A DNA stretch of 48,602 nt. It comes from Parcubacteria group bacterium GW2011_GWD2_38_11 (GTDB lineage: Bacteria > Patescibacteriota > Minisyncoccia > Moranbacterales > GWC2-37-73). The stretch is taken from the NCBI GenBank assembly GCA_000992325.1, contig LBTZ01000007.1:1-48602 (forward strand), written 5' to 3'. The number at the start of each line of letters is the position of its first letter. Within the stretch, counting starts at the first letter, position 1. Below the pieces are notes generated by a model. It saw nothing but the letters and a program-made list of their open reading frames with translations. It was not told the origin of the DNA and ran no database searches. The translations under genes were made by a program, and so were the position numbers. Positions 23,121 through 42,122 of the stretch are shown here, piece by piece.

Positions 23121-24098
23121 TTATCTCCTCTTTACAGTTTTTGCAATTTTAATAACGCGTGAACGTGTTTTTGGCATTTGGCGAACAATATGCACTGTTG
23201 TTGGCTTAGTTTTTTTGGCAGCGCGAGCTTCGCGCAAGCTGCGGAAAATTCTTTTAAGCATAACAAGCAGCAACGCAATCAAAACGATGAGTAAAAGTAA
23301 TTTCAGTCCAAACACAACCCAAAGACCACCCTTATTTTGCGAAAAATTACCAGCTCCGACACCATAATCAGCAAAAATAACTCTTATATAACCCTTGTCC
23401 TGAGCCAATTGAGTTTGGGCTGGGTTTGGATATATCGCAATCTCAGGTTTAACATCTGACGAAGAAGTTGGCTGCTGTGGTGCAGCGGAAGTAGCTTCGC
23501 CCTCAGCAGCTATGCCCATTGGATAATAATATCTTGGCGGAACTTGCTGAGTTTTTTCTTGCACAACCCTGCCGCCAACCTTTTTTAATTCTCCAAAAGC
23601 TGAAGCGAAATTTTCCACTGGAACCTGCACCACAATAGATCCATTTTTCAAGCTATTCGAAGCGTAGGAGATAAATGTTGCATAAATATTTCCCTTACTT
23701 TTTGTTGCAATATCTGAAATAGCTTTCTTGGCAGTTTCCAAATCACTGACCACAATCGCAAGTTCCCCACTTCGCAAAGCATCTTCGGGAAGTACAAATT
23801 GATTTTCTCCATTGCTTGAATTACTTGGCATAGAATAAAATCTTTTTTCACTGCTATTCATTTGCCCGCGCGAAAAACTATACATTCCACCATTTCTAAC
23901 TTCACGCATCTTCCAAGAAGCGGAAGCTATCGAAAGAAAAATAATTGCAAACAAAATAATGCCGCCAACAATTATAAATACTTTTTTATGTTTTCCACCA
24001 AGCCCGCAGCACTTGGTAAATGTTTCCCTGGTCGGGTAGACTTTTGTTTCTCCGCCAGAGGCGGATCCGCCTCTGGCGGACATTTCACCTTTAATCAT
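23121..24098 (-). CDS. DUF4349-like membrane protein
   Basis: 325 residues. A cytoplasmic N-terminus is followed by a transmembrane helix at about residues 39-61 ('VFIIVGGIILFAIIFLSIAS'). The extracytoplasmic domain (about 105-190) resembles DUF4349: 'ELAIVVSDLETAKKAISDIA', 'SKGNIYATFISYASN', 'GSIVVQVPVENFASAFGEL', 'GGRVVQEKTQ'. A second helix lies at about 258-285 ('LWVVFGLKLLLLIVLIALLL'), and the tail is very basic. The role of DUF4349 is unknown; some members are lipoproteins or regulators in the envelope. Residues 8-17 ('ARGGSASGGE') are encoded by a 30-bp perfect palindrome, so a repeat has either landed in the N-terminus or been recruited as coding sequence. The true start could be the Met at 24098 or 24083. 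Confidence 0.72.
   Translation of the reverse strand: MIKGEMSARGGSASGGETKVYPTRETFTKCCGLGGKHKKVFIIVGGIILFAIIFLSIASASWKMREVRNGGMYSFSRGQMNSSEKRFYSMPSNSSNGENQFVLPEDALRSGELAIVVSDLETAKKAISDIATKSKGNIYATFISYASNSLKNGSIVVQVPVENFASAFGELKKVGGRVVQEKTQQVPPRYYYPMGIAAEGEATSAAPQQPTSSSDVKPEIAIYPNPAQTQLAQDKGYIRVIFADYGVGAGNFSQNKGGLWVVFGLKLLLLIVLIALLLVMLKRIFRSLREARAAKKTKPTTVHIVRQMPKTRSRVIKIAKTVKRR
24051..24080. repeat. 30-bp perfect palindrome within the 5' end of the DUF4349-like gene
   Basis: TCCGCCAGAGGCGGA followed by TCCGCCTCTGGCGGA, fully self-complementary. The shorter TCCGCCAGCTGGCGGA at 36321-36336 has the same arms, indicating a dispersed repeat family. Confidence 0.85.
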
Positions 24099-24202: not shown

Positions 24203-25255
24203 TTAAACCATTTTCATCTTCTGAGTTTCAATGTCAACAAGCACCCTTATTTGATGCATATGTGGCAACAATTCATGAAAAAATTCTGAAGCCACTTCAT
24301 GAATTAGCCGGTTATAATAATTTACAACCATTCTGGCGTGTTGCTCATGAATACCAGGACCATAACTAACGGCAGCTAATGTTAGAAATTTCTTATCTTC
24401 ATGCCAATGAGATTTGATAACACCAAACGCTTGCTTTATTACCTTGCCAAGATTTGGGTTGTATTGACCAGCAATAAGCGCCACATTGGGAATATGAAGA
24501 AAATCAAAAGCAGAACCTCCACCAACACCCAATATCCACTCTTTGTGATTCAGTTCCACAATCTCCCGCTTCGATTCCCTAATCTCTGCTATGTGCTTAA
24601 TATTACCCATTAACAATGGCAACAAATCATAACGCATTTGCTCTGGCATATCAGAAAAAAAGGATATCAGATAAGCAGACATTTCTTCTTCATTAATATT
24701 ACTCGGCATTTTGGAGAGATACACCTTTCCACCTTGATTATTATGAAGAATAAGTGCTTCTTCATCTGTCTCAATTCCAACAACGATCGGATAAAGCTGA
24801 TAATGCAATTCCCTGTAGGCTCTTTCCATTTGACCCCTGAAACCCGTAGCACCCTCGATGGATTTTTTTACATTGAATTCATAACCAGCACATCCGCGTT
24901 TCGGATCACCCTTACTAAAATGATAGGTTATAATCGCCAAACATCCATTGCCGGTACGATGATTATCTTCAAGTATCCTACTGAGACCTTGCTGGAAAGT
25001 AAGCCACCCCATATTGAATTTTCCACCAATATTGCGGAAATTTCTGAGATATCCCAACCTTGCCTTACAAAACCTTGAAACAAGCAATCTTCCATCGCCG
25101 CATTTAAAGATCAGCATTTTTGTCGGATGTCTCTCTTTGTATTTATGCAGTTCATGTGATTGATCCAAAAATGCCTCGGAATAATCTGCATTAATACGCA
25201 CGAGCTCATCAACTTTACTCTCAAATTCGGGTGGCACAATAATTTTCTTTGACAT
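24203..25255 (-). CDS. Beta-carbonic-anhydrase-like protein with CsoSCA-like features
   Basis: 350 residues, cytosolic, no signal peptide. The beta-class zinc/active-site pattern is visible: Cys52-x-Asp54-x-Arg56 in 'IFKCGDGRLL', 'RNFRNIGG' at about 71-78 where the family has 'RN(A/I)', then His112 and Cys122 in 'YHFSKGDPKRGCAGY'. Ordinary beta enzymes have His-x2-Cys. The nine-residue gap resembles the carboxysomal CsoSCA subclass more closely. Residues about 235-310 ('EWILGVGGGSAFDF', 'VALIAGQYNPNLGKVI', 'FLTLAAVSYGPGIHE') look like a degenerate second copy of the fold, as in CsoSCA; this is my inference. It should bind zinc and interconvert CO2 and bicarbonate if active. It has its own promoter, ribosome binding site AGGAGGGG and terminator, and lies just downstream of the redox-silent complex operon on the same strand. 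Confidence 0.6.
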   Translation of the reverse strand: MSKKIIVPPEFESKVDELVRINADYSEAFLDQSHELHKYKERHPTKMLIFKCGDGRLLVSRFCKARLGYLRNFRNIGGKFNMGWLTFQQGLSRILEDNHRTGNGCLAIITYHFSKGDPKRGCAGYEFNVKKSIEGATGFRGQMERAYRELHYQLYPIVVGIETDEEALILHNNQGGKVYLSKMPSNINEEEMSAYLISFFSDMPEQMRYDLLPLLMGNIKHIAEIRESKREIVELNHKEWILGVGGGSAFDFLHIPNVALIAGQYNPNLGKVIKQAFGVIKSHWHEDKKFLTLAAVSYGPGIHEQHARMVVNYYNRLIHEVASEFFHELLPHMHQIRVLVDIETQKMKMV

Positions 25256-25382: not shown

Positions 25383-26942
25383 TTACAAATCAGTTCCGGA
25401 ATAACTAAGGTTCAAGCTCTTATTTATCAAAGGAAAGTCCGGAACAATATTACCTGGACCCATAATCCCAAAAAGTGCCCAATTGCAAAATGAAGGATCG
25501 CGAGGAAAACAGCGTTCGATAACACCATTTTTAATTTCAAGTGCGCACAAAATTTCTCCACGCCAAGACTCCACTGCGCCGATTGCAAAACCATCCTTAA
25601 TTTCGATATCTGTAGTTATTCCGCCACCTGCCATTTCAGCAATCAATCTTTCAATTAATTCAATCGTTATCTTCATTTCTTCAATACGAACCAAATAGCG
25701 CGAATGCACATCTCCCTTTTTTTTCAAAGAAACAGTTGTTGGATATTTTTCATAAGCAGCATATGGATGATCACGACGCACATCGCGATCAAGTCCTGAT
25801 CCGCGAGCAGCAATTCCAAGAGCACCGAAAGCCTTTGCTGCTTCAAGCGGAAGCACACCCGTTGTTTGAAGACGATCTAAAAATCCATCGGAAGCCAAAG
25901 CTAAATTTACAATCTTATTCATTTCAGCGTAAGCATCTTTAGAAACTTCCAATATATTTTTTAATTGCATTTCACTTAAATCTCTTGCAACACCGCCGAT
26001 AGATATAAACTCTCGCCAAAAACGATTACCAAAAATGTCATCAGAAAGACGCATCATTCTTTCTTTAATGCGAAATCCATTAGCTGCAATAAAACTATAC
26101 CCTGTTCCCATCCCACCAATATTAGCCAGGTCGTGAATATGCATTGTCAATCTTTCAAGTTCCAAAACAAGTGTGCGTAGCATTTTGGCGCGATCAGTCA
26201 AATTGCAATTTGAAATAGTTTCAATTGCTTGGATATATGCCAAGGAGTGAGAAGCTGCCATATCACCGGAAATTCCTTCGACGTATGGCAAAGCATCCTT
26301 AGGACTTTTTCCTTCCATCAATTTTTCAACTCCCTTATGTGTGAAAAATAATTTTCCTTCCAAAGTCAAAATTCTTTCTCCAGCAACATTAAAGCGAAAA
26401 TGTCCCGGCTCAATGATCCCAGCATGAATAGGCCCCACTGGAATTTCAAAAATTCCTTCACCAGAAATATGATGCATTGGATATGCAACATTTGCCTTTT
26501 CAAGTTTTGTGTTCCAAATAAAATCTTTTTGTAGAGGATGCACTCCTTCTGGAATATTTTCGTGGTTCACCAATCTTCTTGAATCTGGATGACCTTCAGC
26601 TACAACGCCAAACATATCCTGCATATATCGCTCATACCAGTGCGCAGCCATAATTGTTCTTGTAATTGAGGGATAACGTGGATCATTTTCCGGCAAGCTC
26701 GCTGAAAGTTTTAACCATTGATGATTTGCATCATCTCCAAAAATAACATTCACACCAAAAGTCTGATTTTCTTTGCGATTATCCGTGCCATACAAAGATG
26801 ACAAAAATAATTTGTGTTCATCAACAAGTGATGTGACAACTCCTGCCAAATCTTCTCGCGAAACTGTTGCAAAAACAGTATCGTTTTTTTGCTCAACGAT
26901 GATTACTTGGGGAAATTTTTTGAGAATATCATGGATGCTCAT
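25383..26942 (-). CDS. HyfG/NuoCD-like large subunit lacking all NiFe ligands
   Basis: 519 residues. Residues 1-140 are a NuoC (30-kDa) domain ('HWYERYMQDMFGVVAEGHPD', 'HPLQKDF'), and residues 160-519 are the NuoD / hydrogenase large-subunit fold ('PVGPIHAGIIEPGHFRF', 'KGVEKLMEGKSP', 'LERLTMHIHDLANIGG'). In group 4 hydrogenases the metal is held by CxxC near 'RICGICxxAHS' and by 'DPCxxC' at the C-terminus. Here the first reads 'GISGDMAASHS' (Ser225 and Met228 at the Cys positions) and the second 'DPSFCNW' (Ser484 and Asn487). A functional NiFe site is therefore not possible. Energy-converting hydrogenase-related (Ehr) complexes share this loss. It is the last gene of the operon, after a 140-bp palindromic spacer. 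Confidence 0.88.
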   Translation of the reverse strand: MSIHDILKKFPQVIIVEQKNDTVFATVSREDLAGVVTSLVDEHKLFLSSLYGTDNRKENQTFGVNVIFGDDANHQWLKLSASLPENDPRYPSITRTIMAAHWYERYMQDMFGVVAEGHPDSRRLVNHENIPEGVHPLQKDFIWNTKLEKANVAYPMHHISGEGIFEIPVGPIHAGIIEPGHFRFNVAGERILTLEGKLFFTHKGVEKLMEGKSPKDALPYVEGISGDMAASHSLAYIQAIETISNCNLTDRAKMLRTLVLELERLTMHIHDLANIGGMGTGYSFIAANGFRIKERMMRLSDDIFGNRFWREFISIGGVARDLSEMQLKNILEVSKDAYAEMNKIVNLALASDGFLDRLQTTGVLPLEAAKAFGALGIAARGSGLDRDVRRDHPYAAYEKYPTTVSLKKKGDVHSRYLVRIEEMKITIELIERLIAEMAGGGITTDIEIKDGFAIGAVESWRGEILCALEIKNGVIERCFPRDPSFCNWALFGIMGPGNIVPDFPLINKSLNLSYSGTDL

Positions 26943-26949
26943 TTTTTTG

Positions 26950-27080
26950 TAAAAATCAATTTTGAATTTTGAATTCTGAATTTTGAATCAATTTTTAATG
27001 TCAAAATTTTTAATGTTTCAAAATTAAATCATTAATGAATTAGTGCTTCATTCGAAATTCAAAATTTGAAATTCGAAATT
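26950..27080. repeat. AT-rich palindromic spacer, TTTTGAATT family
   Basis: TTTTGAATTTTGAATTCTGA on the left and ATTCAAAATTTGAAATTCGA on the right can pair across the spacer. Its middle (TTAATGTTTCAAA, ATCATTA) is shared with the spacer at 39575-39695. It separates two genes of one operon. Confidence 0.7.
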
Positions 27081-27082
27081 AT

Positions 27083-28561
27083 CTATTTTGAAATGTATAT
27101 TATATCTTTAGAGATCAAATCAATAAATTTAAGTCCGTCAGCTGATGAGAAAAAGAAAGTCAATCCAACAACCAAAATCAATTGCGCAATCATTACCCAA
27201 TGTGTAAGGTTCCATTTTTCTCTCTTTCCTAAAGACGTGACGTCTTCCCCTTCAGAAAAAAACATTCCGATTGTTGAGCGAAGCATTGCATATGCAATCA
27301 CACTTAAAGCTACAAAAATAAGCAGCGACAAAAATGGATGCAGCACAAAAGCACTAGTAAACATCGTATATTCACTTACAAACAAAACTGACGGAGGAAG
27401 TGCAATGATCGACAAAATACCAAACAAAAACAATGTGGCCGTGAAAGGTGCTTTCTTCATTAAGCCTTTTATTTTTTCCGTCTGTGTTGTTTTGTAATTG
27501 ATCAATATTTCGCCCGCTCCGAAGAAAAGCATTGATTTTGTGAGTGTGTGTCCAATCATATGAATAACAGCCGCCAGAGCGCCAATTGGAGACAATGCCA
27601 GCGCAAAAGTGATGATACCCATATGCTCCACACTAGAATAGGCCAACATTCTCTTATAATTACTTTGCACTAACATCATAAAAGCAGGCACTATAATTGA
27701 AATAAAACCAAAAAACAAAAATAACTGTCCTGTCCATTCATTGCTTCCCAGTGTTAAATCAGTAATAAACCTGAAACGAATAATCCCATAAAGAGCGATA
27801 TTGAGCAAAATTCCAGAAAAAAGACCTGAAATTGGAGAGGGTGCATTACTATGAGCATCAGCCAGCCAGATATGCATCGGCACTAAACCAAGCTTTGCTC
27901 CAAAACCAACAAAAATAAAAACAAAAGCCCATCTGGCAATATCAGGGGAAAGCAAATGAGCATTTTCCGCAAGACTTGTCAGAGTAAAAATATCACTGCC
28001 ACTTATACCAGCCAAGGATGAGCCATAACCTAATAATAAAATTCCAAGCAAGCCCAAACTTATTCCTGTTGAACAAATAATAATATATTTCCAAGCAGCT
28101 TCAGCGGATGTTTTTTTGCGATAAAGTCCAACCAAAAATGTTGAGGAAAGAGTTGTGCCTTCGAGTGTCATCCAAAGCAAAAGTGCATTATTAGCCATAA
28201 CCGTGATCATCATACAAAGAGCAAAAATATGAAACAATCCAAAATAAAGTTTGAGATCACTGAGTGTCAAAATATTTTCCTCATATTCGTGTCCAATATA
28301 ACGAAAACTCACAATAGCTGCAGACATATATACAAAAGCAACTAGTGTCGCCATCAAAGCTGAAAAATTGTCCATTAGCCAAACACTATCAGACCAAGCA
28401 GCGGTGGTTTGAAAAAGAACCGGCAAAGACATTGCAAAAACTGAAGCTCCCGCAGTTAGTGCAAGCAAAAGACTGCTTTGACGAATATGTTTTTCTTTTT
28501 TAAGAAAAATCACGAAAGCTGTTGCAATAAAAATAATGATGATTGTGAGAATTGGACTCAT
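27083..28561 (-). CDS. HyfF / NuoN-like antiporter-type membrane subunit
   Basis: 492 residues with about 14 predicted transmembrane helices. It is a proton-conducting subunit of the Mrp/NuoL-M-N family (PF00361 type). The residues needed for ion transfer are kept: Glu134 in helix 5 ('WMTLEGTTLSS'), Lys223 in helix 7 ('AKLGLVPMHIWLADAH') and Lys342 near 'GHTLTKSMLFF', with 'YSSVEHMGII' also conserved. It follows the fused HyfC+HyfE-like gene by seven bases. Together with the HyfB-like subunit this gives two antiporter-like channels in the complex, although the soluble arm seems unable to carry out redox chemistry. Confidence 0.9.
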   Translation of the reverse strand: MSPILTIIIIFIATAFVIFLKKEKHIRQSSLLLALTAGASVFAMSLPVLFQTTAAWSDSVWLMDNFSALMATLVAFVYMSAAIVSFRYIGHEYEENILTLSDLKLYFGLFHIFALCMMITVMANNALLLWMTLEGTTLSSTFLVGLYRKKTSAEAAWKYIIICSTGISLGLLGILLLGYGSSLAGISGSDIFTLTSLAENAHLLSPDIARWAFVFIFVGFGAKLGLVPMHIWLADAHSNAPSPISGLFSGILLNIALYGIIRFRFITDLTLGSNEWTGQLFLFFGFISIIVPAFMMLVQSNYKRMLAYSSVEHMGIITFALALSPIGALAAVIHMIGHTLTKSMLFFGAGEILINYKTTQTEKIKGLMKKAPFTATLFLFGILSIIALPPSVLFVSEYTMFTSAFVLHPFLSLLIFVALSVIAYAMLRSTIGMFFSEGEDVTSLGKREKWNLTHWVMIAQLILVVGLTFFFSSADGLKFIDLISKDIIYISK

Positions 28562-28568
28562 AAATTTA

Positions 28569-30179
28569 TTATTCGATTAAATTACGCAGGTCTTCAGTAT
28601 CAGAAGAACCATGAAATTCCCTGATGCGCGAACCTAAAATTGATAAAATAAACGCACTTGCGACGATGATAATAAAAACGCCAAGCTCAATCAGTAGCGG
28701 CAATGATTTTACTGTTACCAGAGTAAAAACAGTCACACCATTTTCAATAATCAGCAGCCCTAAAATTTGAGAAAAAATATTGCGATGCACTATCATTGTC
28801 GCCAATCCCAATCCAACAAGTGCAATCGAGGCAAACAAAAGAGTGTCAAATTCAACCACACCAATAATTGGAGTTTGTTTCATCACAAAAAATGTTGCTC
28901 CCAAAATAACAACTGCCACAAAATAACTTGAGGCTGGACGAAGGAATGATGGCGAACTTATAAATTCCTTGTGTTTTCTTTGAGCATACCTGACCACGAT
29001 TGGAATTATTATTGACTTAATCAGTATGGTTACAGCTGCAAACAACCATAAATGTTTTTTTTCTTCTTCTCCCAAAATAAAAGAAAGTCCAAAAGCTATC
29101 CCCGCGATGCTAAGTGAAGAAAATGCATAATATCTGAGCATCACTTGGCTGCGAGCGCGACCAAACAAAAGTATCACAAAAAACACGGCCAGCGCTGCAA
29201 ACAATGTGTGGTATTCAATAGCAACCTCAATAACATATGAAAACATAGCGATCAACATTCCAAACATTGCCGTGAAAAAAGCGATTGACATATATTCTTG
29301 CATTCGATAAAATCTCATCTTAACAACCACGCTTTCCAGCAAAGCCAAGAGCCCCATTGCAATAACAACTTTTATGATTCCAATAAAAATGGCAACGATG
29401 CCAGCAACCAATGCTGAACCAATGCCAAGACTGGCCGCTACACCAACAGTTGCCGGAAAAATAAAATTTGAAAGCAAAATGGCAAATACTGTCAATTTAA
29501 TCGCACTGGCATATTCAAGCATAGCCAAATAAGCACCGGAATATTCCAAAATCATTGCCTCGTGCACCATTGTAAGTTCAAGATGTGTTGCTGGATTATC
29601 CACCGGATAACGCGCATTCTCAGCTAAGGTTACCAACAAAAAAGCAAAAATTGAAAGCAATAAATATGGATGAGAAAAAACAAGTTGTTGCCCTATCATT
29701 CCATCTATCGCAAAAGTTCCACCTACAAAACTCATAGCAGCAAAAACCATAATAATTGTCGGCTCAACAAGAGCGGCTATCGTCATCTCGCGACTTGAAC
29801 CCATCCCACCAAAAGCGCTCCCCGGATCAAGTCCACCAAGGACCAAAAAGATTGAACCAATCATAAGGATTCCCGCAACCACCAAGAAATCACTCATACT
29901 TGCAAGCTTTCCACCAACAAAAAGTAGTGGCAAAATGAAAGCCAATGCTATTGAGGTTGAAAAAACCACAAAAGGCACCACACGGAAAACCCAAGAAGTT
30001 GCAGCTGAGATAACCATTTGCTTTTTAAAAAGTGTGGCAAATGTGTAATATGGCAAAAAGGGAGACGCACCCTTTCGCCCTTGAAGCCGCGCCTTGCAAA
30101 ATCGCACCAAACCGGAAGCAAACGGCGCAATTAAAATAATAAAAAATCCTTGTAACAATGTTGCTAATATTGGATTCAT
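28569..30179 (-). CDS. Fused HyfC (NuoH-like) and HyfE (NuoK-like) membrane subunit
   Basis: 536 residues. Residues 1-310 are NuoH/HyfC-like, the subunit that links the soluble arm to the membrane: 'RFCKARLQGRKGASPFLPYY', 'GGMGSSREMTIAALVEPTII', and 'LAENARYPVDNPATHLELTM' followed by 'VHEAMILEYSG'. Residues about 320-536 are HyfE/NuoK-like, with 'LLIIENGVTVFTLVTVKSLP' and 'IELGVFIIIVASAFILSILG'. In hydrogenase-4 and complex I these are separate genes, so this is a fusion. A long stretch of extra helices joins them. The first bases overlap the stop of the HyfB-like gene (ATGA), implying tight co-translation. The conserved acidic residues of both halves are present. Confidence 0.88.
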   Translation of the reverse strand: MNPILATLLQGFFIILIAPFASGLVRFCKARLQGRKGASPFLPYYTFATLFKKQMVISAATSWVFRVVPFVVFSTSIALAFILPLLFVGGKLASMSDFLVVAGILMIGSIFLVLGGLDPGSAFGGMGSSREMTIAALVEPTIIMVFAAMSFVGGTFAIDGMIGQQLVFSHPYLLLSIFAFLLVTLAENARYPVDNPATHLELTMVHEAMILEYSGAYLAMLEYASAIKLTVFAILLSNFIFPATVGVAASLGIGSALVAGIVAIFIGIIKVVIAMGLLALLESVVVKMRFYRMQEYMSIAFFTAMFGMLIAMFSYVIEVAIEYHTLFAALAVFFVILLFGRARSQVMLRYYAFSSLSIAGIAFGLSFILGEEEKKHLWLFAAVTILIKSIIIPIVVRYAQRKHKEFISSPSFLRPASSYFVAVVILGATFFVMKQTPIIGVVEFDTLLFASIALVGLGLATMIVHRNIFSQILGLLIIENGVTVFTLVTVKSLPLLIELGVFIIIVASAFILSILGSRIREFHGSSDTEDLRNLIE

Positions 30180-32182
30180 AAAACTATAATTAATGTGACA
30201 ATTAATGTTCCCAAAACAAAAAGCAAATAATATTGAATGCGACCACCCTGAATCACGCGGACACGCTGCGCCAAAAAATTCAAAATGCCCGCAATCGGTT
30301 GATACAATTTATCTTTCCAAACAGATTTAAGCAACAAGGAAAAAGTGTACTTACGAATCCATATATTACTTTCAACAGCAGCTATTGATTTTAAAACCTT
30401 ATCTCTTCCTAATAAATGCAAAAAGAAAAATCTAATTGGACCAGAAAAAGCCGTGGCAGAATATTGCATCGTTGCATCAATTGACTGTCCACAATCCCAA
30501 GTTTTATATTCCCTTTCAGTCACATTTTTACCAAAAAAATTATACAGCGCATATGTAAGTGCCAAGAAAATTACAAGAATCAAAAACACCATCGATGAAG
30601 AAAGATGACTTGTTATTGCACTTATTGACTCATCTGAAGGAGAAGTTGCTAAAATATTTCCATAACCATTAAGCCAGCCAATAATAGGTTTTGCAAAAAT
30701 TCCTAAAATAAGCACGCCGAGCCCAAGTGTCATTACAGGAACGCTGAGCATAAAATCAGTTTTTTCAGATCTTTCGTCAATATGAGCTGTGCGAGGCAGT
30801 CCAAGCATTGAAATGCCAAAAATCTTAACCATAGCAAATATTGCCAATCCACCAATAAGACCCATCAGCGCAATACTGCCAAAAATAATGAGCATTGCAA
30901 CAGAACTAAGCAGCGGACTACTAAGCAAGCTGATTGCGTTTTCAATTAGTCCCCATTCTCCATAAAATGTTCCGAATGGAGGAAGTGGAGATGCAGACAA
31001 AATCGCAATCAAAAATGCAAAAGAAAAAAATGGCATAATTTTAGCTAAGCCACCCATAACTTCAAGCCGCTTAGAATGAAAACGATTGATGATAATACCA
31101 CTGCTTAAGAAAAGTGCTGTTTTGAAAAGTGCGTGATTTATTGCGTGAAAAATAGCAAACACCACGATAATATTTGAAATTATCACGATGCTATCATCAG
31201 AACTTTGCGACAAAAGATATATTGAAATTCCAAGCATCGTAAAAATAATTCCCATATTTTCAATACTACTATAAGCAAAGCCGCGCTTCATATCCCTCTC
31301 AACAACCGCATATAGCACGCCAACAAGCGCAGAAAGAAGACCCAATGCAATAACAACAATTCCAGCCCAATCAGGCAAATTTGTCATAGCAAAAACTATT
31401 TTAATGAAACCAAAAATTGCGACCTTGAGCATAAGACCTGACATCAAAGCTGAGATGTTGCTTGGTGCTTGAGGATGAGCCTCTGGAAGCCAAACGTGAA
31501 ACGGAACAAGTCCTGCCTTTGATCCAAAACCAAACAAAAATAACAAGAATGTAAGCACGACTAGCATTGGTGAAAGATTTCCTGATAAAGCAGCAACATC
31601 AGCAAAATTAAAGAATAAATTTCCACCACTTAAAATCAAAAAACCTCCCAAAATTGCTGAGGCTCCAAGATGCGTCATAATAAAATACAAGAAAGCTGCG
31701 CGAACCGACTGGGAAGTTTTATCAGCCATAACCAAAAAGAAAGATGAGATACTCATCACTTCCCAAAAAAACATAAAGGCAAGCCCGTTATTGGACAGTA
31801 GCACTCCTTGCATTCCCAAAACGAAAACTACTGTCAAAAATTGCGTAAGCGCGGGATTATAAGTTTCTTTATAAAGCTCCAGATATCGCATACTATACAC
31901 TCCCGCCAAAGCTGACACGCCACTAATAACGGTAAAGAAAATTGCGCTCAAAAGATTTATCGTTGGCGCAAAATCAAAAAGCCAATTCCAAGAAGCCAAA
32001 ACAATTTCTTTTGGAGCAAAATTAAACAAATATAAAATTCCAGTTATAAAACCTATAACATTTACCAATACAAAAAGTTGAACAGATTTTTTCCATTGTC
32101 CGCCAAACAGCGCAAAACATCCCGCAAAAAATAAGCCAAAAAAATAAACAAAAAAACCGAAAGCTATAGAATCTATCGTCAT
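30176..32182 (-). CDS. HyfB / NuoL-like antiporter-type membrane subunit
   Basis: 668 residues, with about 14 core transmembrane helices plus a C-terminal extension. Core channel residues are retained: Glu141 ('FFWEVMSISSFFLVM'), Lys222 ('SKAGLVPFHVWLPEAH'), the 'SSIENMGIIF' motif and Lys354 ('INHALFKTALFLSSG'). The C-terminal part has 'REYKTWDCGQSIDATMQYSA', typical of HyfB/HycC and Ech-type NuoL homologues, followed by an amphipathic region and a last helix ('YYLLFVLGTLIVTLIIVL'). It lies nine bases after the HyfI-like gene and overlaps the next gene by four bases. It should be one of two ion-translocating channels of the complex. Confidence 0.92.
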   Translation of the reverse strand: MTIDSIAFGFFVYFFGLFFAGCFALFGGQWKKSVQLFVLVNVIGFITGILYLFNFAPKEIVLASWNWLFDFAPTINLLSAIFFTVISGVSALAGVYSMRYLELYKETYNPALTQFLTVVFVLGMQGVLLSNNGLAFMFFWEVMSISSFFLVMADKTSQSVRAAFLYFIMTHLGASAILGGFLILSGGNLFFNFADVAALSGNLSPMLVVLTFLLFLFGFGSKAGLVPFHVWLPEAHPQAPSNISALMSGLMLKVAIFGFIKIVFAMTNLPDWAGIVVIALGLLSALVGVLYAVVERDMKRGFAYSSIENMGIIFTMLGISIYLLSQSSDDSIVIISNIIVVFAIFHAINHALFKTALFLSSGIIINRFHSKRLEVMGGLAKIMPFFSFAFLIAILSASPLPPFGTFYGEWGLIENAISLLSSPLLSSVAMLIIFGSIALMGLIGGLAIFAMVKIFGISMLGLPRTAHIDERSEKTDFMLSVPVMTLGLGVLILGIFAKPIIGWLNGYGNILATSPSDESISAITSHLSSSMVFLILVIFLALTYALYNFFGKNVTEREYKTWDCGQSIDATMQYSATAFSGPIRFFFLHLLGRDKVLKSIAAVESNIWIRKYTFSLLLKSVWKDKLYQPIAGILNFLAQRVRVIQGGRIQYYLLFVLGTLIVTLIIVL

Positions 32183-32191
32183 AGAATTGTA

Positions 32192-32731
32192 TTAAAAATT
32201 TTTCTGATTAAGCGCGCCAAGAACTCCACGCAAAATTTCAATGGGACGAGGAGGATTTCCAGGGATGCGAATATGCACAGGAATAACTTTGTCGACCCCA
32301 CCAACCACAGCGTAAGAATCTTTCCAGATGCCGCCATCGATTGCCCCATCCCCAAGAGCTACCACAATGCAAGGACTAGGAGCGGCTTCGTAAGTTGTTT
32401 TGAGAGCATTTTCCAAATTTCGCGTCACCGGACCTGACACAAAAAGCATATCGCAATGACGCGGAGATGCCACAAAAGAAAGCCCGAAACGGTCAATGTC
32501 ATAATAAGCATTATTCAGAGCTGTAAATTCAATTTCTTCAGCATTGGTGGAACCAGCATCAACCGCGCGAATTCGCAGTGATTTTCCACCATAAAGCCTT
32601 TTTATCGTTTCTTTTAGTTCTTGTCCAACAGCTTCAAATTGAGCATTTTCGGAAAATTCCCTGATTGCTTTTTCATTTTCTGTGACTTTTGGCCCAAATA
32701 GTAAGATTTTGAGTAATTGAAAAAATTTCAT
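32192..32731 (-). CDS. HyfI/NuoB-like small subunit lacking all Fe-S ligands
   Basis: 179 residues. The NuoB / hydrogenase small-subunit fold is clear from 'YYDIDRFGLSFVASPRHCDM', 'VSGPVTRNLENALKTTYEA', 'ALGDGAIDGG' and 'GGVDKVIPVHIRIPG'. All four cysteines that normally bind the proximal [4Fe-4S] cluster are replaced. The first pair should be 'SCNGCE' and reads 'STNAEE' (Thr62, Glu65); 'GDC' reads 'GDG' (Gly129); and 'PGCPPRP' reads 'PGNPPRP' (Asn159). Surrounding residues are otherwise well kept, so this is neither random decay nor sequencing error. It is the first gene of the operon. With the ligand-less large subunit, it leaves the complex with no recognisable redox centre. Confidence 0.9.
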   Translation of the reverse strand: MKFFQLLKILLFGPKVTENEKAIREFSENAQFEAVGQELKETIKRLYGGKSLRIRAVDAGSTNAEEIEFTALNNAYYDIDRFGLSFVASPRHCDMLFVSGPVTRNLENALKTTYEAAPSPCIVVALGDGAIDGGIWKDSYAVVGGVDKVIPVHIRIPGNPPRPIEILRGVLGALNQKNF

Positions 32732-32988: not shown

Positions 32989-33426
32989 TCAGTCGAGCTT
33001 GATTCCACCTCTTGAATGGTGTTTTCTGGCAACTCGAACACGTGCACTTTCTTTTTCGATGGCGGCAGCCACTCGCGCATATTCCATTTCGCTCATGGTT
33101 ACTTTTTCATTTTTAATTTCTTCTGCTCTCTTTCTGGCTTCCTCTGCACGCTTCAAATCAATTTCACCAGCAGCTTCCGCTGTGTCAGCCAACACCACCA
33201 ATGTATTGTTGTTAAATTCCACAAAGCCGCTTGAAACAACCAGTAAAGTTTCTTTTCCATCCACTTTAAACATAACCTCGCCAGCTTTTAGCGATGCGAT
33301 ATACGAACGATGATCAGGCATGATCGTCACTTCCCCATCTGTAACCGGAAGCGTGATCTGATCAACCTCCTGTTCGAAAAGCGTTCGTTCGGGAGTAACA
33401 ATCTTAAATTTTATTCGTGAACTCAT
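32989..33426 (-). CDS. atpC: ATP synthase epsilon subunit
   Basis: 145 residues from the Met at 33426 ('MSSRIKFKIVTPERTLFE'); the seven residues upstream come from spacer sequence. The N-terminal beta sandwich (about 1-85) is typical ('VDQITLPVTDGEVTIMPDH', 'LLVVSSGFVEFNNNTLVVLA'). The C-terminal helical hairpin (about 90-135) is present and rich in Arg, Glu and Ala ('AEEARKRAEEI'). It couples rotation of the c-ring with gamma and can inhibit ATP hydrolysis. It is the last gene of the atp locus, after atpD, from which it is separated by a repeat spacer. Confidence 0.93.
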   Translation of the reverse strand: MSSRIKFKIVTPERTLFEQEVDQITLPVTDGEVTIMPDHRSYIASLKAGEVMFKVDGKETLLVVSSGFVEFNNNTLVVLADTAEAAGEIDLKRAEEARKRAEEIKNEKVTMSEMEYARVAAAIEKESARVRVARKHHSRGGIKLD

Positions 33427-33429
33427 AAA

Positions 33430-33550
33430 ATTATAATCAAGATACAATCACCAAGATACAAACATCAAACAAAATTCAAGCATCAAATTCCAAACGGCTT
33501 TGTTTTGAAAATTGTGATTTGAGATTTGTTTGGTTATTGTTTCTTGTTTC
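33430..33550. repeat. AT-rich imperfect palindromic spacer between atpD and atpC
   Basis: AAGATACAATCACCAAGATA and similar units at one end are partly complementary to TTATTGTTTCTTGTTTCTTG at the other. No gene. Confidence 0.5.
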
Positions 33551-33573: not shown

Positions 33574-34965
<1,392 letters not shown>

Positions 34966-36452: not shown

Positions 36453-37412
36453 TTATTCGAGAGCAGCGCGACCAGCGCTGATCTCAGCTATTTCCTGTGT
36501 GATCTTTCCTTGCCTGATCTGATTATATGCCAGCGTCAAATCTTCACTCATCTCACCTGCTGCGTCCGTGGCGTTTCTCATTGCAAGCATGCGCGCAGAT
36601 TGTTCAGAAGCTTGCGATTCCAAAACTGCGTGAAAAAGTTGCATCTCAATCAATCGCGGAATTATAAACTCCAAAACTTCTTCAGGACTTGGCTCAACTT
36701 TATATTCAACAATCGGCTCTTCCAATCCATACTCCTTGGCCAACACATCCATTTCAGCAATTTGTTTTTCGATATCAATTTTTGAAATAGGCAAAACCTG
36801 GCGAATTCTGGTTTGTTGATTTACAGCGCTGACATAATCAGTATACACAACAACAACTTTGTCATATTTTTTTGCCAAATAATCTTCCATCACAATTTTT
36901 GAAAGTGGCTTGATGTCGGCGACAGTCGCAAATTTTCCACCATCTTCAAATGCAGCCACAATTTCACGTTGCATTTTCTTCACCATACTTTCACCTTTTT
37001 TTCCAATCGTAATAAAATCAATTTTGAGATCCTCGTCTTTGATTTTTGATTCAATTTTCTTTTTTCCAATACGGTTTATTTTCAGTTTTTCCGGATGCAA
37101 AATCTCTTCTTTAATTTTTTTTGCAACTTGAGTATTGAATGATCCACAAAGTCCACGATTTGATGTCACCACAACCATAAGCACACTTTTAACTTCACGC
37201 ACTGCCAAAAAGCCGCTGCCTTGCGAAGATTCAAATGCTCGAGCAAGATTTGTCAGCACACTCCAAGCACTGTGAGCATATGGTCTGATTCCCAAAACGC
37301 TAGCCACCGCGCGCCGCATTTTGGCAGCACTAACCATCTCCATGGCCTTGGTAATCTTTCTTGTGCTATTAATCGAACGAATTCGACGTTTTATGTCTAA
37401 TGATGAAGCCAT
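36453..37412 (-). CDS. atpG: ATP synthase gamma subunit
   Basis: 319 residues, somewhat longer than the usual ~290. It forms the central rotor shaft. The N-terminal helix 'DIKRRIRSINSTRKITKAME' continues with 'MVSAAKMRRA', and the C-terminal helix 'NATDAAGEMSEDLTLAYNQI' with 'RQGKITQEIAEISAGRAAL'; both are diagnostic and form the coiled coil inside the alpha3-beta3 ring. The Rossmann-like middle contains 'VVVTSNRGLCGSFNTQV'. A lysine-rich loop at about residues 110-135 ('KLKINRIGKKKIESKIKDED') accounts for the extra length. It follows atpA and is the last gene before the interruption of the locus. Confidence 0.96.
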   Translation of the reverse strand: MASSLDIKRRIRSINSTRKITKAMEMVSAAKMRRAVASVLGIRPYAHSAWSVLTNLARAFESSQGSGFLAVREVKSVLMVVVTSNRGLCGSFNTQVAKKIKEEILHPEKLKINRIGKKKIESKIKDEDLKIDFITIGKKGESMVKKMQREIVAAFEDGGKFATVADIKPLSKIVMEDYLAKKYDKVVVVYTDYVSAVNQQTRIRQVLPISKIDIEKQIAEMDVLAKEYGLEEPIVEYKVEPSPEEVLEFIIPRLIEMQLFHAVLESQASEQSARMLAMRNATDAAGEMSEDLTLAYNQIRQGKITQEIAEISAGRAALE

Positions 37413-37424
37413 AATTTAATAATA

Positions 37425-37560
37425 ATTTTCAATGATCAATTTTCAGTTTTCATTGTCCTCCTGCGAGGATAAGTCTGAAACAAAAATTTTCAATGTTTCA
37501 ATGTTTGAAAATTTAGAAATTGAGAATTGATTGTAAATTGTGAATTGTAAATTGAAAATT
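37425..37560. repeat. AT-rich palindromic spacer between atpA and atpG
   Basis: TTTTCAATGATCAATTTTCA at one end and AATTGTAAATTGAAAATT at the other are complementary. It also contains TCCTCCTGCGAGGATAAG, a hairpin that recurs with one change near 40310. Confidence 0.65.
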
Positions 37561-37566
37561 CTGCGT

Positions 37567-39072
37567 TTATGCGGTCTGGTATACTTCTTTAAACTCCTTA
37601 ATCGCCTTCTCTAAACTTGCAATAACATCGTCACTTAGTTCTTTCTTTTCTCCAATAAGCGTAATCACATCCTTAGCTTGAGAATCCAAATATTTATGAA
37701 AATCTTTTTCCCAAGTTTTGATTTCTTCCACTGCCACATCATCCAAAAATCCATTGGTCAGCGCGTATAAAATTGCCACCTGATGCTGCACAACCATCGG
37801 TTCATATTGTCCTTGCTTGAGAATTTCCACTGATCTTCTTCCGCGTTCAATTTGCGCGCGAGTTTTTTCATCAAGATCGGATCCAAATTGTGCAAAAGCT
37901 TCAAGCTCACGGAACTGCGCCAATTCCAATCGAATTTTTCCAGCCACTTTTTTCATAGCTTTGATTTGAGCCGATCCTCCCACGCGAGAAACTGAAAGAC
38001 CAACATTTACAGCTGGGCGAATACCCTTGTAAAACAAATCGGATTCCAAGAAAATTTGACCATCGGTGATAGAAATAACATTTGTTGGGATGTATGCACT
38101 AACATCTCCAGCTTGAGTTTCAATAATCGGAAGCGCAGTCATCGAACCACCACCGAAGTCCTCATTAAGTTTTGCGCTTCTCTCCAAAAGACGAGAATGC
38201 AAATAAAAAACATCTCCAGGATATGCTTCGCGTCCCGGTGGACGTTTCAAAATCAAGGAAATTTGACGATATGCCCAGGCGTGGCGAGAAAGATCATCAA
38301 AAACAATAAGCACATCTTGCCCCTTGTCCATAAAATATTCTCCCAAAGCGCAACCGGAATATGGAGAAATATATGAAAGCGCTGAAGATTCAGATGCTCC
38401 CGCTACCACAATAGTTGTGTATTCCATTGCTCCACGTTTTTCAAGTTCTCCCAAGATACGTGCAATTTTTGATTCTTTCTGACCAATCGCAACATAGATA
38501 CATTTCATATTTTGACCCTTCTGATTGATGATCGTGTCGATTGCAATCGCAGTTTTTCCAGTTTGACGATCACCAATAATAAGCTCGCGTTGTCCACGTC
38601 CAATTGGAATCATTGCATCAATTGCTTTAATTCCAGTTTGCACGGGCTGATGAACACTTTTACGAGTAATAACACCTGGGGCAATTTTTTCCACAGGATA
38701 AAATTTATCAGCAACAATATCGCCCTTTCCATCCACTGGAATTCCAAGTGGATTAATCACGCGTCCAATCATAGAATCTGCAACAGGAATAGAAAGAACT
38801 TTTCCAGTAGCCTTCACCTCATCACCTTCTTTGATCCCAGTGTAATTTCCAAGTACGATAACACCAACTCGATCTTCTTCAAGATTAAGTGCCACCCCGA
38901 TTTCTCCATTGGGAAATTCAACCATTTCCGATGCCATCAAGTCAGAAAGTCCTGAAACACGAGCCACACCATCTCCCATTTCAATAACCTTTCCAACTTT
39001 TTCAGTTGAAGTTTCAGTCTTGAATCCTTCGATTTGACTTTTCAATTGTTCAATTATGTAGTCTTTATTCAT
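37567..39072 (-). CDS. atpA: ATP synthase alpha subunit
   Basis: 501 residues, normal length. Non-catalytic nucleotide-binding subunit of F1: P-loop '[11 protein letters not shown]' at 167-177, '[13 protein letters not shown]', Walker B '[20 protein letters not shown]', the alpha-specific arginine in '[11 protein letters not shown]'-type sequence ('[20 protein letters not shown]'), and '[18 protein letters not shown]'. The N-terminal helix, which contacts delta, is present. It lies between atpH and atpG, as in the standard operon. Confidence 0.98.
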
Positions 39073-39172
39073 AATATAGAGTTATAAAGTTTATAAGGTT
39101 TTTAAAGTTTATAAAGTAAAATAAATCCCCACTTTACAAACTTTACGAACTTTACGAACTTTACGAACTTTT
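39072..39172. repeat. AT-rich palindromic spacer, GTTCATAAA family
   Basis: AGTTATAAAGTTTATAAGGT on the left and ACTTTACAAACTTTACGAAC on the right, in several unit copies, between atpH and atpA. Confidence 0.65.
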
Positions 39173-39572
39173 AACTTATTAATTTATTTTTTAATTTCTT
39201 TAATTGCATTGCAACCGATCCATCTATCACTTCATCCCCGACTTTTATTATAATTCCTCCCTGAATTTTTTCATCTTTTTTATAAATCATTTCAACCTCT
39301 TTTGCATTATATTTTTTTTTCACAAATTCCTTCACATCATCCAAAACTTTTTGTGACACATCTCCGCGACCGCAGACTTGGGTCACAACTATTCCATTTT
39401 TTGCATTATAAATTTCAGAAAATTTTTCCATTATTTTCCCTGCATTTTTCAATTGTCCATCGTTTTTTAATTGCTCGGCAAACTTTGACACAATAACTAA
39501 AATATCTTCCTGAGATTTGTTTTCAGTAAGTTCAAAAAGTGTTTGTGAATATTGTTTTACGGTTATTTTCAT
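39171..39572 (-). CDS. atpH: ATP synthase delta subunit, short form
   Basis: 133 residues, against about 175-180 usually. It is the stator protein between F1 alpha and the b subunits. The C-terminal part is typical: 'KKYNAKEVEMIYKKDEKIQG' followed by 'GIIIKVGDEVIDGSVAMQLK'. The N-terminal helical bundle appears shortened by about 40 residues, lacking part of the usual six-helix domain. Its position between atpF and atpA supports the assignment. Short delta subunits fit a reduced genome, and there is no sign of a frameshift. The stop lies directly at the edge of the upstream repeat spacer. Confidence 0.85.
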   Translation of the reverse strand: MKITVKQYSQTLFELTENKSQEDILVIVSKFAEQLKNDGQLKNAGKIMEKFSEIYNAKNGIVVTQVCGRGDVSQKVLDDVKEFVKKKYNAKEVEMIYKKDEKIQGGIIIKVGDEVIDGSVAMQLKKLKNKLIS

Positions 39573-39574
39573 GA

Positions 39575-39695
39575 TTATAATTTTGAATTTCCAATTTTGA
39601 ATTTTGAATCAATTTTAAATTTCTTAATTTTTAATGTTTCAAACATTATGTCATTAGGATTTTATTCGAAATTCGAAATTCATACTTCGAAATTG
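39575..39695. repeat. AT-rich palindromic spacer, TTTTGAATT family
   Basis: TTTTGAATTTCCAATTTTGA and TTCGAAATTCGAAATTCATA can pair. The centre shares TTTTTAATGTTTCAAA and GTCATTAG with 26950-27080, so the two spacers are copies of one element type. Confidence 0.7.
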
Positions 39696-40187
39696 CTAGT
39701 CATTTATAGCTTTTTCTATAATAGCCTTATCTTTTTCCAAATCCAACTTTTCATCAATAATCTTACTCGTAGCAGAAATGACTAGGCTTGCGATTTGTCC
39801 TTTCACCTCTTGCATCATCTGATTTTTTTCCTGCTCAATCTTCTTTGCAGAATCTGCCAGAATTTTCTCTGCTTGAGCTTTCGCTTCAACAACAATTTCT
39901 TCCTTGCTTTTAGTTGCGGATTCTTCAGCTTTTGCAATAATTTCCTGAGCTTGCTTTCGTGCTTCCACCAAAACTTCTTTTTCTTTTTCCGTGATTTCAG
40001 TAAGTTTCTTGCCAGCATTTTCAGCGTCAGCAATTCCTTTTTCAATTTTCTCGCTTCGATCTTCCATCATCTTGAGCACTGGACCATAGGCATAACGCTT
40101 CAGCACAAACAAAACAATTGCAAAGTTTACCAATTGTGCAATTATCAGTTTCCAATCAATGTGAAATGTTGAGATTAATTCATTCAT
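39696..40187 (-). CDS. atpF: ATP synthase b subunit
   Basis: 163 residues. One N-terminal transmembrane helix (about residues 11-30, 'WKLIIAQLVNFAIVLFVLKR') is followed by 'YAYGPVLKMMEDRSEKIEKG' and a long, charged coiled coil rich in Lys, Glu and Ala ('AENAGKKLTEITEKEKEVLV', 'AEESATKSKEEIVVEAKAQA'). It is the peripheral stalk that holds F1 against the rotor. Only one b-type gene is present, so a homodimer is expected. It lies between atpE and atpH. Confidence 0.95.
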   Translation of the reverse strand: MNELISTFHIDWKLIIAQLVNFAIVLFVLKRYAYGPVLKMMEDRSEKIEKGIADAENAGKKLTEITEKEKEVLVEARKQAQEIIAKAEESATKSKEEIVVEAKAQAEKILADSAKKIEQEKNQMMQEVKGQIASLVISATSKIIDEKLDLEKDKAIIEKAIND

Positions 40188-40421
40188 AAATATAGTTAAA
40201 TTATAATTGAGTTTTGATTATATTCCGTTATATAAACACGAAGTCATCGGTCATCAGTAATCTGTCATCTTATTCAAGCTCACTGGTCTCAGCATTTGAT
40301 GACTGATGTCCTCCTTCGAGGATAAGCTTGGGGCAAAACAAGTGACTGATTGCTTTTTCAATATCCTCATTCCGACTCCCTATTTCTAAGAAGTCGAATG
40401 AAAATACTACGGTTCGCAATA
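40188..40421. other. Gene-free spacer between atpE and atpF
   Basis: 234 bp with short inverted repeats: GTCATCGGTCATCAGTAATC against ATTTGATGACTGATG, and TCCTCCTTCGAGGATAAG, which matches the hairpin unit in the atpA-atpG spacer. No open frame or promoter of note. Confidence 0.5.
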
Positions 40422-40661
<240 letters not shown>

Positions 40662-40709
40662 TCAGCTATATTTTCTCCTCTTTGGGGAATATAGATGGTG
40701 TATACATAA

Positions 40710-40872
40710 ATTATTATTACAAATTTTCAATTCTCAATTCACAATTTTCAATGAATTTCCAATTTTCAATTCTCAAATGTTTGAAAATTTAGTCATTGGG
40801 ATTTTATTGGAAATTGATCATTGATAATTGGAAATTCCTTTTAAAATTTCAAAGCTTTGAAATTTTAAAAGG
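40710..40872. repeat. AT-rich palindromic spacer between atpB and atpE
   Basis: TTTTCAATTCTCAATTCACA and TGAAAATTTAGTCATTGGGA with GATCATTGATAATTGGAAAT form complementary halves of the TTTTCAATT family. AAATTTCAAAGC then GCTTTGAAATTT at about 40853-40869 forms a shorter hairpin next to the atpB stop. Confidence 0.65.
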
Positions 40873-41715
40873 CTAGTGTTCTTCTGCCGTTGTAGCTATA
40901 CTCATGAACGCCAACGTCAAAATCGCAAACACCAAGGCCTGCACAATTCCCACGATTAATTCTAGAAACATAAACGGCAATGGCAAAATGAAAGCAGAAA
41001 TTGCCATCATTGATGCTAGCAAAACTTCTCCAGCAAAAATATTTCCAAAAAGTCGAAGACTGAGCGATGCCACCTTGGCAATTTCTCCCACAATTTCAAT
41101 CAGTCCCACAAAAATCTTGATTGGGTTCACCATAATGATGGTTGGATCTTTTTTGATTTTCTTTGGGATTGCAATGATCGCTTTGATGTTCACAAACTTA
41201 TTGAAATGATCCCAAAGTCCAACCATCACCACTCCAAAGATATGCGAAATGATCACTGAGAAAAGTGCAATTGCAAGTGTTGTGTTCAGATCTGCGGTTG
41301 CACCCCGAAAAAGTGGCACAAAAACTTTTCCGTGTTCTCCAGTCTCCACAAACCCGATCGTTCCGACACCCGGAAGCAGTCCCATCCAATTGCTGACCAA
41401 AATAAAAAGGAATAGCGCCAACACAATTGGCAAAAATTTCAAAGTCTTCTTGCGTCCGCCAGTCACACTGTCAGCCATATTCAAAGCTTGTTCCAAAATG
41501 ATTTCAAAAAAATTCTGAATTCCTTTCGGTTTTCCAGCAATGTTTTTCTTAGCCTTTTTTCCAACCAAAATAAAAAAAGTCACCAAAATGGCAACGGTCA
41601 TCCAACTCATAATCAAAGAATTGGTGATGGTAAAATTTCCAATATGAACAATCGGTTCAGCAAAAAGAGTGCTTTCATGACTAACTTCTAAATTGTTGGT
41701 ATTTTCAGTAGACAT
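40873..41715 (-). CDS. atpB: ATP synthase a subunit
   Basis: 280 residues with about six membrane helices. The essential arginine is Arg221 in 'ASLSLRLFGNIFAGEVLL'. Other landmarks are 'FLFILVSNWMGLLPGVG' and the C-terminal helix 'LIVGIVQALVFAILTLAFMS'. Together with the c-ring it forms the ion half-channels. It is the second gene of the locus after the small AtpZ/I-like protein, separated by a repeat spacer of about 150 bp. Confidence 0.96.
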   Translation of the reverse strand: MSTENTNNLEVSHESTLFAEPIVHIGNFTITNSLIMSWMTVAILVTFFILVGKKAKKNIAGKPKGIQNFFEIILEQALNMADSVTGGRKKTLKFLPIVLALFLFILVSNWMGLLPGVGTIGFVETGEHGKVFVPLFRGATADLNTTLAIALFSVIISHIFGVVMVGLWDHFNKFVNIKAIIAIPKKIKKDPTIIMVNPIKIFVGLIEIVGEIAKVASLSLRLFGNIFAGEVLLASMMAISAFILPLPFMFLELIVGIVQALVFAILTLAFMSIATTAEEH

Positions 41716-41734
41716 CTATGTATTTAAACTTCAA

Positions 41735-41862
41735 CTATTAAACTTAAAATTGAATATCAAATTAAAAATAACAAATATCAAATGAATTCCAAATGCCAAA
41801 TGTTCTAATTTTGTCATTTAGAAATTTAAGTATTGATTTGAAATTTTTAATTTTTAATTTGG
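41735..41862. repeat. AT-rich palindromic spacer upstream of atpB
   Basis: AATATCAAATTAAAAATAAC and complementary TTTTAATTTGGAATT units. It shares TAACAAATATCAAATGAATT (in inverse orientation) with the spacer at 34975-35115. Confidence 0.65.
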
Positions 41863-41864
41863 AA

Positions 41865-42122
41865 TTATTTTTTCTTGCTTTCTTGTTTTTCAATTTTCTT
41901 AAACTCCTCAAACCCAATTTTTATCAACATTACCATTGATATCACAAAACTTATTCCAACTGTGGACAAGAAAAGCCAAGGTTCACTGCTATATCGTCTG
42001 TCCAGATATTTTCCAACAAAAACCGCAATAATAATTGGGCCTCCGATCCAGCCACTAAGTTTCAAAAATAGTTGCATTCCAGGCTGCCACCAAGCAGTAT
42101 TTGATTTTTTTTCGGTACTCAT
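41865..42122 (-). CDS. AtpZ/AtpI-like small membrane protein of the ATP synthase operon
   Basis: 85 residues with two transmembrane helices, about 24-42 ('GWIGGPIIIAVFVGKYLDRR') and 48-68 ('PWLFLSTVGISFVISMVMLI'), and a charged C-terminus ('FEEFKKIEKQESKKK'). 'GKYLDRRY' matches the pattern 'G.W.D...' seen in the AtpZ / AtpI family that precedes atpB. These proteins help c-ring assembly or Mg2+ uptake. It is the first gene of the atp locus on the minus strand. Confidence 0.82.
   Translation of the reverse strand: MSTEKKSNTAWWQPGMQLFLKLSGWIGGPIIIAVFVGKYLDRRYSSEPWLFLSTVGISFVISMVMLIKIGFEEFKKIEKQESKKK

Follow-up and report, generated by a model that had tools for sequence, protein, structure and literature searches.

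The stretch of DNA analysed here (48,602 nucleotides, hereafter the window) belongs to a 0.94 Mb draft genome that is 90% complete and whose nearest named relative is a Candidatus Moraniibacteriota genome (L137), with a small subunit 87% identical. On the minus strand an ATP synthase operon (~42.1–33.0 kb) is followed by a five-gene complex (32731–25383), a gene of 350 residues (25255–24203) and a DUF4349-like gene. As a preliminary description of this DNA had it, the five same-strand genes encode a NuoB/HyfI-like small subunit (32192–32731), a HyfB-like antiporter-like subunit (30176–32182), a membrane subunit in which HyfC (NuoH-like) and HyfE (NuoK-like) are fused (28569–30179), a HyfF-like antiporter-like subunit (27083–28561) and a HyfG-like large subunit uniting NuoC and NuoD (25383–26942). 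The ATGA overlaps said to join them came down to one, between the HyfB and HyfCE genes (30176–30179), the remaining gaps being 9, 7 and about 140 bases. Immediately upstream of the complex lies atpC (epsilon subunit, 32989–33447), preceded by atpD (beta subunit, 33574–34950, assigned from its translation and from homologues 64–97% identical) and by the remainder of the operon (36453–42122), a small upstream gene and genes that we take, from their translations and established knowledge, to be atpG, A, H, F, E and B. The c-subunit (40422–40649), as we read its sequence, lacks the Gln and Ser of Na+-type enzymes, and by these residues the ATP synthase is probably of the H+ type. The earlier account stopped at the edges of the operon and named no partner for the complex, but its neighbourhood offers candidates: next downstream is the gene of a CsoSCA-like putative carbonic anhydrase, and on the upstream side the complex directly adjoins the ATP synthase operon.

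When the small subunit is aligned to MbhJ (6cfw_J, E 3e-26) and FHL (7z0s_G), T62, E65, G129 and N159 stand at the four cluster cysteines, and none of the 32 small subunits fetched from the same order has the full ligand set, which bears out the claim that all four [4Fe-4S] ligands are gone. The ligands of the complex I N2 cluster are likewise absent from this subunit. Across the 32 homologues the ligand positions read GS[TSD]NA[EC]E, GD[GD]A and PG[DNE]PP in highly conserved surroundings; one subgroup retains a single Cys, which alone is insufficient for a [4Fe-4S] cluster, and the two Cys left in the window protein (93 and 121) are not conserved in the family. Since the ligand set is missing from every one of these small subunits, that is, across many independent genomes, and dN/dS is low, a read error is ruled out. 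Alternative Cys/His cluster ligands were also considered and rejected, as the alignments contain no invariant Cys in either the small or the large subunit. The operon encodes no ferredoxin-like subunit, as had been observed, and neither it nor its immediate flanks hold NuoE/F/G-like genes.

In the large subunit the first CxxC is replaced by SGDM and the second by NLSYSG. Of the four substitutions given previously, Ser225 and Met228 are right, while Ser484 and Asn487 fall in another conserved stretch (DPSFCNW), the residues that replace the second pair of cysteines being Ser513 and Gly516 in SLNLSYSGTDL (509–519). The SGD and SYSG motifs are common to nearly all relatives fetched, including those from Rhizobiales, Verrucomicrobia and Methanosarcina, and thus the NiFe loss is a trait of the entire Ehr family. 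That Ehr complexes lack NiFe ligands, as the preliminary description noted, is a known hallmark, already published for CPR Ehr by Jaffe et al. (PMC7304191) and for Nitrospira (PMC10284858), the latter giving the function of the family as unknown. The window operon resembles these complexes in its subunit set (NuoB, NuoCD and HyfB/C/E/F-like subunits in one operon), in its NiFe cysteine loss and in the large-subunit motifs SGD and LSYSG.DL, and it has neither of the two NiFe-binding CxxC motifs of group 4 [NiFe] hydrogenases. A 77-sequence tree of the large subunit (LG+C20, SH-aLRT) places it among Ehr, apart from the NiFe-bearing L134 and L135 (support 100), and not with Mbh-type sequences. 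It differs in that the four small-subunit [4Fe-4S] ligands, retained by most of the non-CPR relatives fetched, are missing, HyfC and HyfE are fused, and an ATP synthase and a carbonic anhydrase gene adjoin it.

The residues of the ion path, in contrast to the cofactor ligands, have been kept. Glu134/Lys223/Lys342 of the HyfF-like subunit are conserved in 63 of 63 sequences and Glu141/Lys222/Lys354 of the HyfB-like subunit in 61–62 of 62, and both sets are (near-)invariant across the two CPR-containing clades and the archaeal set discussed below. Against the nearest relative dN/dS is 0.045 for the small subunit, 0.10, 0.08 and 0.065 for the membrane subunits and 0.13 for the large subunit, and within the genus it ranges from 0.04 to 0.18 over all five genes. 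The preliminary description held that the ion channels are under selection, and asked for ligand losses shared across a clade with dN/dS well below 1; both points are upheld (0/32 small subunits in the order; 0.05–0.13), and an Ehr-like identity with no redox centre is supported by motif, selection and conservation data alike. The loss of all cofactor ligands might otherwise suggest an operon decaying after hydrogenase function was lost, and the Ehr of Geobacter has been described as non-functional (PMC13194489), yet low dN/dS, intact reading frames of the complex genes in dozens of genomes and invariant pump residues contradict decay, to which we attach almost no probability.

The complex might still be a redox enzyme, passing electrons through an unlinked partner or another cofactor (a flavin, a quinone, or a mononuclear metal bound by the Asp/Glu now found in place of the cysteines). 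Conserved Glu, Asp and Asn do occupy former Cys positions, and one ferredoxin-like gene lies elsewhere in the genome. However, the mapped Fe-S-less operons carry no redox subunit, apart from a ferredoxin-like stretch fused in L120; neither soluble subunit has an invariant Cys; and there is no proximal cluster, on which both group 4 hydrogenases and complex I depend. We regard a redox role as improbable.

On the 77-sequence tree the Fe-S state changes four times by parsimony and at least twice on well-supported branches. Sequences without the ligands make up clade A, which holds the window (20 rows, support 100), clade B (25 rows, support 99) and a third clade, from Methanosarcina, Methanoregula, Altiarchaeales and Dehalococcoidales, which is nested next to archaeal and clostridial sequences that keep the ligands. 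Profile matches occurred in about 4–6% of the Patescibacteria genomes sampled, a few of them cysteine-bearing. Intact cysteines in close relatives would have told against the earlier reading; they were found only at a distance, Fe-S-intact Ehr occurring in one CPR lineage and in many other bacteria, so that the loss is derived rather than an artefact, and it is repeated among Ehr complexes. The CPR sequence concerned (L119, G232), from the same class as the window, has all four small-subunit cysteines and no NiFe motif, and possibly represents an intermediate state. Clade-B-type sequences from bins labelled Actinomycetes, Thermoleophilia or Syntrophus lie close to those of CPR, and their contigs may be CPR ones that were binned wrongly. 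Several variants of the operon were also seen: the independently Fe-S-less archaeal and Dehalococcoidales operons (L151, L154, L159, L160, L176) begin with an antiporter gene and end with the small subunit, and L160 apparently has two such clusters; the Fe-S-less small subunit of L120 (G643), on a very long branch, carries an N-terminal ferredoxin-like stretch, CxxCxxCxxxC; and in family f9 (L051, L052, L053, L055, L056, L061) a gene for a DedA-like membrane protein directly precedes the clade-B small subunit.

The protein encoded at 24203–25255 has no match at default thresholds: it scores 17.4 bits against Pfam CsoSCA_cat (cut-off 21.5), which two homologues reach with 27.8 and 31.6 bits, and it matches that family only, even at E up to 10. 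A profile of 14 homologous sequences found PDB 2fgy with E=1e-11, and a Foldseek search with a low-confidence model, predicted from three sequences (mean pLDDT 55), returned CsoSCA as all of its top four hits (E 6e-9 to 2e-8). The Zn ligands and the Asp/Arg dyad (C52-x-D54-x-R56, H112, C122) are invariant in the 14 homologues and align, together with parts of the C-terminal half, to CsoSCA (2fgy, 8thm). Judged by its sequence, the product is a beta-class carbonic anhydrase. CsoSCA is a carboxysome shell protein, whereas this gene adjoins an ATP synthase and the complex, and RuBisCO was not found in the 90%-complete genome; carbon concentration for RuBisCO was rejected on this ground, which makes pH or bicarbonate homeostasis a likelier purpose than carbon fixation and weighs against the need for a carbon pump.

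Within the family a carbonic anhydrase gene comes right after the large subunit in nine of the nine operons with enough contig to be assessed, and its kind varies: CsoSCA-like in the window, L032, L037 and L217; gamma type in L033 and L035 (best structures CcmM, 3kwc, E=4e-36, and Cam); Pro_CA_2 type in L034, L036 and L038 (E down to 3e-22). These three kinds are unrelated or distantly related, and their exchange at one site argues for function over simple inheritance. Elsewhere in clade A the anhydrase gene comes before the small-subunit gene (L047, L049), or the operon has one on either side (L041, L042); G014 has anhydrases on both sides of a complex that lies away from the ATP synthase. 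In clade B, the large-subunit gene of G112 is immediately followed by a Pro_CA_2 gene, at a great distance from the ATP synthase, and G113 has the same downstream synteny with a contig break between complex and anhydrase; G014, G112 and G113 are the only cases of the pairing with no ATP synthase nearby. A sub-threshold match tentatively places a CsoSCA-like gene two genes past the large subunit in G694, from another phylum-level family. Most clade-B and archaeal complexes have no adjacent carbonic anhydrase, the neighbours of archaeal and proteobacterial relatives include no common partner, and over the whole order the association of complex and anhydrase has p=0.05 (Fisher, phylogeny not controlled). 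The open-licence literature that we searched contained neither a report of Ehr paired with a carbonic anhydrase nor a description of Fe-S site loss in Ehr; NiFe loss in Ehr, including that of CPR, was known (PMC7304191).

The ATP synthase is the other recurrent neighbour. Clade-B complexes sit between atpG and atpD (G285), after atpD/atpC (G092) or one gene from atpB (L144), having moved to this locus independently; in G654 the complex is within 4 kb of ATP synthase genes, and the linkage has thus arisen several times. The anhydrase can also be found there by itself. It directly follows atpC, with neither complex nor SulP at the site, in G036, G038, G047, G116, G052, G057, G095, G089, G090 and G048, in the last seven (L238, L239, L240, L242, L243, L244 and L248) as a Pro_CA_2 gene, sometimes with a gamma-type or second CA-like gene. 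ATP synthase and carbonic anhydrase are therefore linked by themselves across the order, a strict tie of the anhydrase to the complex is not supported, and the data amount to a three-way association. At the same site in G046, of the same genus (L229:4774–7519), and in G037 (L219:1114–4055), the order is atpC, SulP, carbonic anhydrase, DUF4349, ParA, with the complex missing; there an anhydrase and a BicA-type SulP, an unrelated single-protein transporter, fill the identical position. SulP and the complex never occur together in the family (0/11 vs 5/8, p=0.005) and rarely do in the order (3/33 vs 27/98, p=0.03; Fisher tests, both ignoring phylogeny).

These arrangements bear on the strongest rival to the interpretation given below, one that keeps the ion machine and denies the link to the anhydrase. 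The complex would be a redox-free cation/proton exchanger, or a pressure valve for proton-motive force at the ATP synthase, and the anhydrase an independent neighbour of the synthase that buffers local pH. Such a division of labour fits both the anhydrases that follow atpC with no complex and the complexes that adjoin an ATP synthase with no adjacent anhydrase (e.g. G285, G092, G109), but not the complex–anhydrase pairs away from the ATP synthase (G014, G112/G113), nor the fact that the site is otherwise occupied by SulP, which transports anions, and not by cation antiporters. We consider it rather unlikely, though a serious contender.

The interpretation we favour is that of a derived Ehr-type complex that has abandoned electron transfer and become an ion-gradient-coupled CO2/bicarbonate machine. 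The antiporter-like and NuoH-like subunits would carry protons, the cofactor-free NuoB/NuoCD head would transmit conformational change, and the neighbour-encoded carbonic anhydrase, presumably bound to the complex, would handle CO2 and bicarbonate. Most likely, by analogy with DabAB, proton-motive force would drive CO2 hydration, bicarbonate accumulation or CO2/HCO3- pH control, although the direction could be the opposite. Because the anhydrase also follows atpC where there is no complex, and its link may be to the ATP synthase, we hold this with lowered confidence, as a plausible reading somewhat short of an even chance.

Two energised systems offer comparison. DAC/DAB2 (DabA–DabB), which carries out proton-driven vectorial CO2 hydration (PMC13144422), likewise joins a complex I-type antiporter subunit to a beta-CA-like protein with no redox centre, but consists of one DabB and DabA (PF10070), whereas here a five-gene Ehr complex would be coupled to an anhydrase of CsoSCA, Pro_CA_2 or gamma type. 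The 24203–25255 product matches CsoSCA_cat and not PF10070, and the ion pair of the antiporter-like subunits retains its Glu; the complex is therefore not a DAC member. This Glu (Glu141/Glu134), whose equivalent in DabB2 is Ile, also counts against our main reading. The cyanobacterial CO2-concentrating NDH-1MS with CupA/CupS (PMC6981117) likewise links a complex I relative to the hydration of CO2, but it is driven by electron transfer, has Fe-S clusters, and its CupA is unrelated to the anhydrases here.

These lineages are generally thought to have no respiratory chain, and this, with an ATP synthase apparently of the H+ type encoded right beside the complex, would suit a reverse mode, in which CO2 from fermentation is hydrated and the complex lets out the resulting proton or bicarbonate, supplying the adjacent synthase with proton-motive force. 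CO2 hydration, however, yields little free energy, CO2 diffuses freely, and the known relatives DAB2 and NDH-1MS work in the hydration direction and spend energy on it. We think this mode improbable, if a shade less so than a redox role.

How complex I makes the transfer of electrons pump protons is still debated, and a natural version that selection maintains with no redox centre would demonstrate that a cofactor-free head is enough by itself for the proton machinery to be powered or to power chemistry. In its fullest form, which we advance more hesitantly than the favoured reading itself, the proposal is of a cofactor-free complex I-type machine that evolved several times from Ehr and trades proton-motive force against CO2 hydration or the transport of bicarbonate in non-autotrophic CPR, at one locus with ATP synthase, a third energised carbonic anhydrase architecture besides DabAB and NDH-1MS/CupA. 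If true, CPR bacteria, mostly without respiration, would gain a specific purpose for their proton-motive force, and the Ehr family a testable role in CO2/bicarbonate handling.

Other genes at these loci deserve mention. Proteins with beta-CA-like CxD..R and HxxC motifs and no significant Pfam match adjoin Ehr operons or the ATP synthase (L129:11023–11988, L152:5136–5942, L124:11382–12146, L044:2–580, L242:5827–6414), and families c53, c87 and c93, with similar motifs and likewise no significant Pfam match, are weak leads. The window's DUF4349-like membrane protein (23121–24098), encoded downstream of the carbonic anhydrase position, is retained there across the family.
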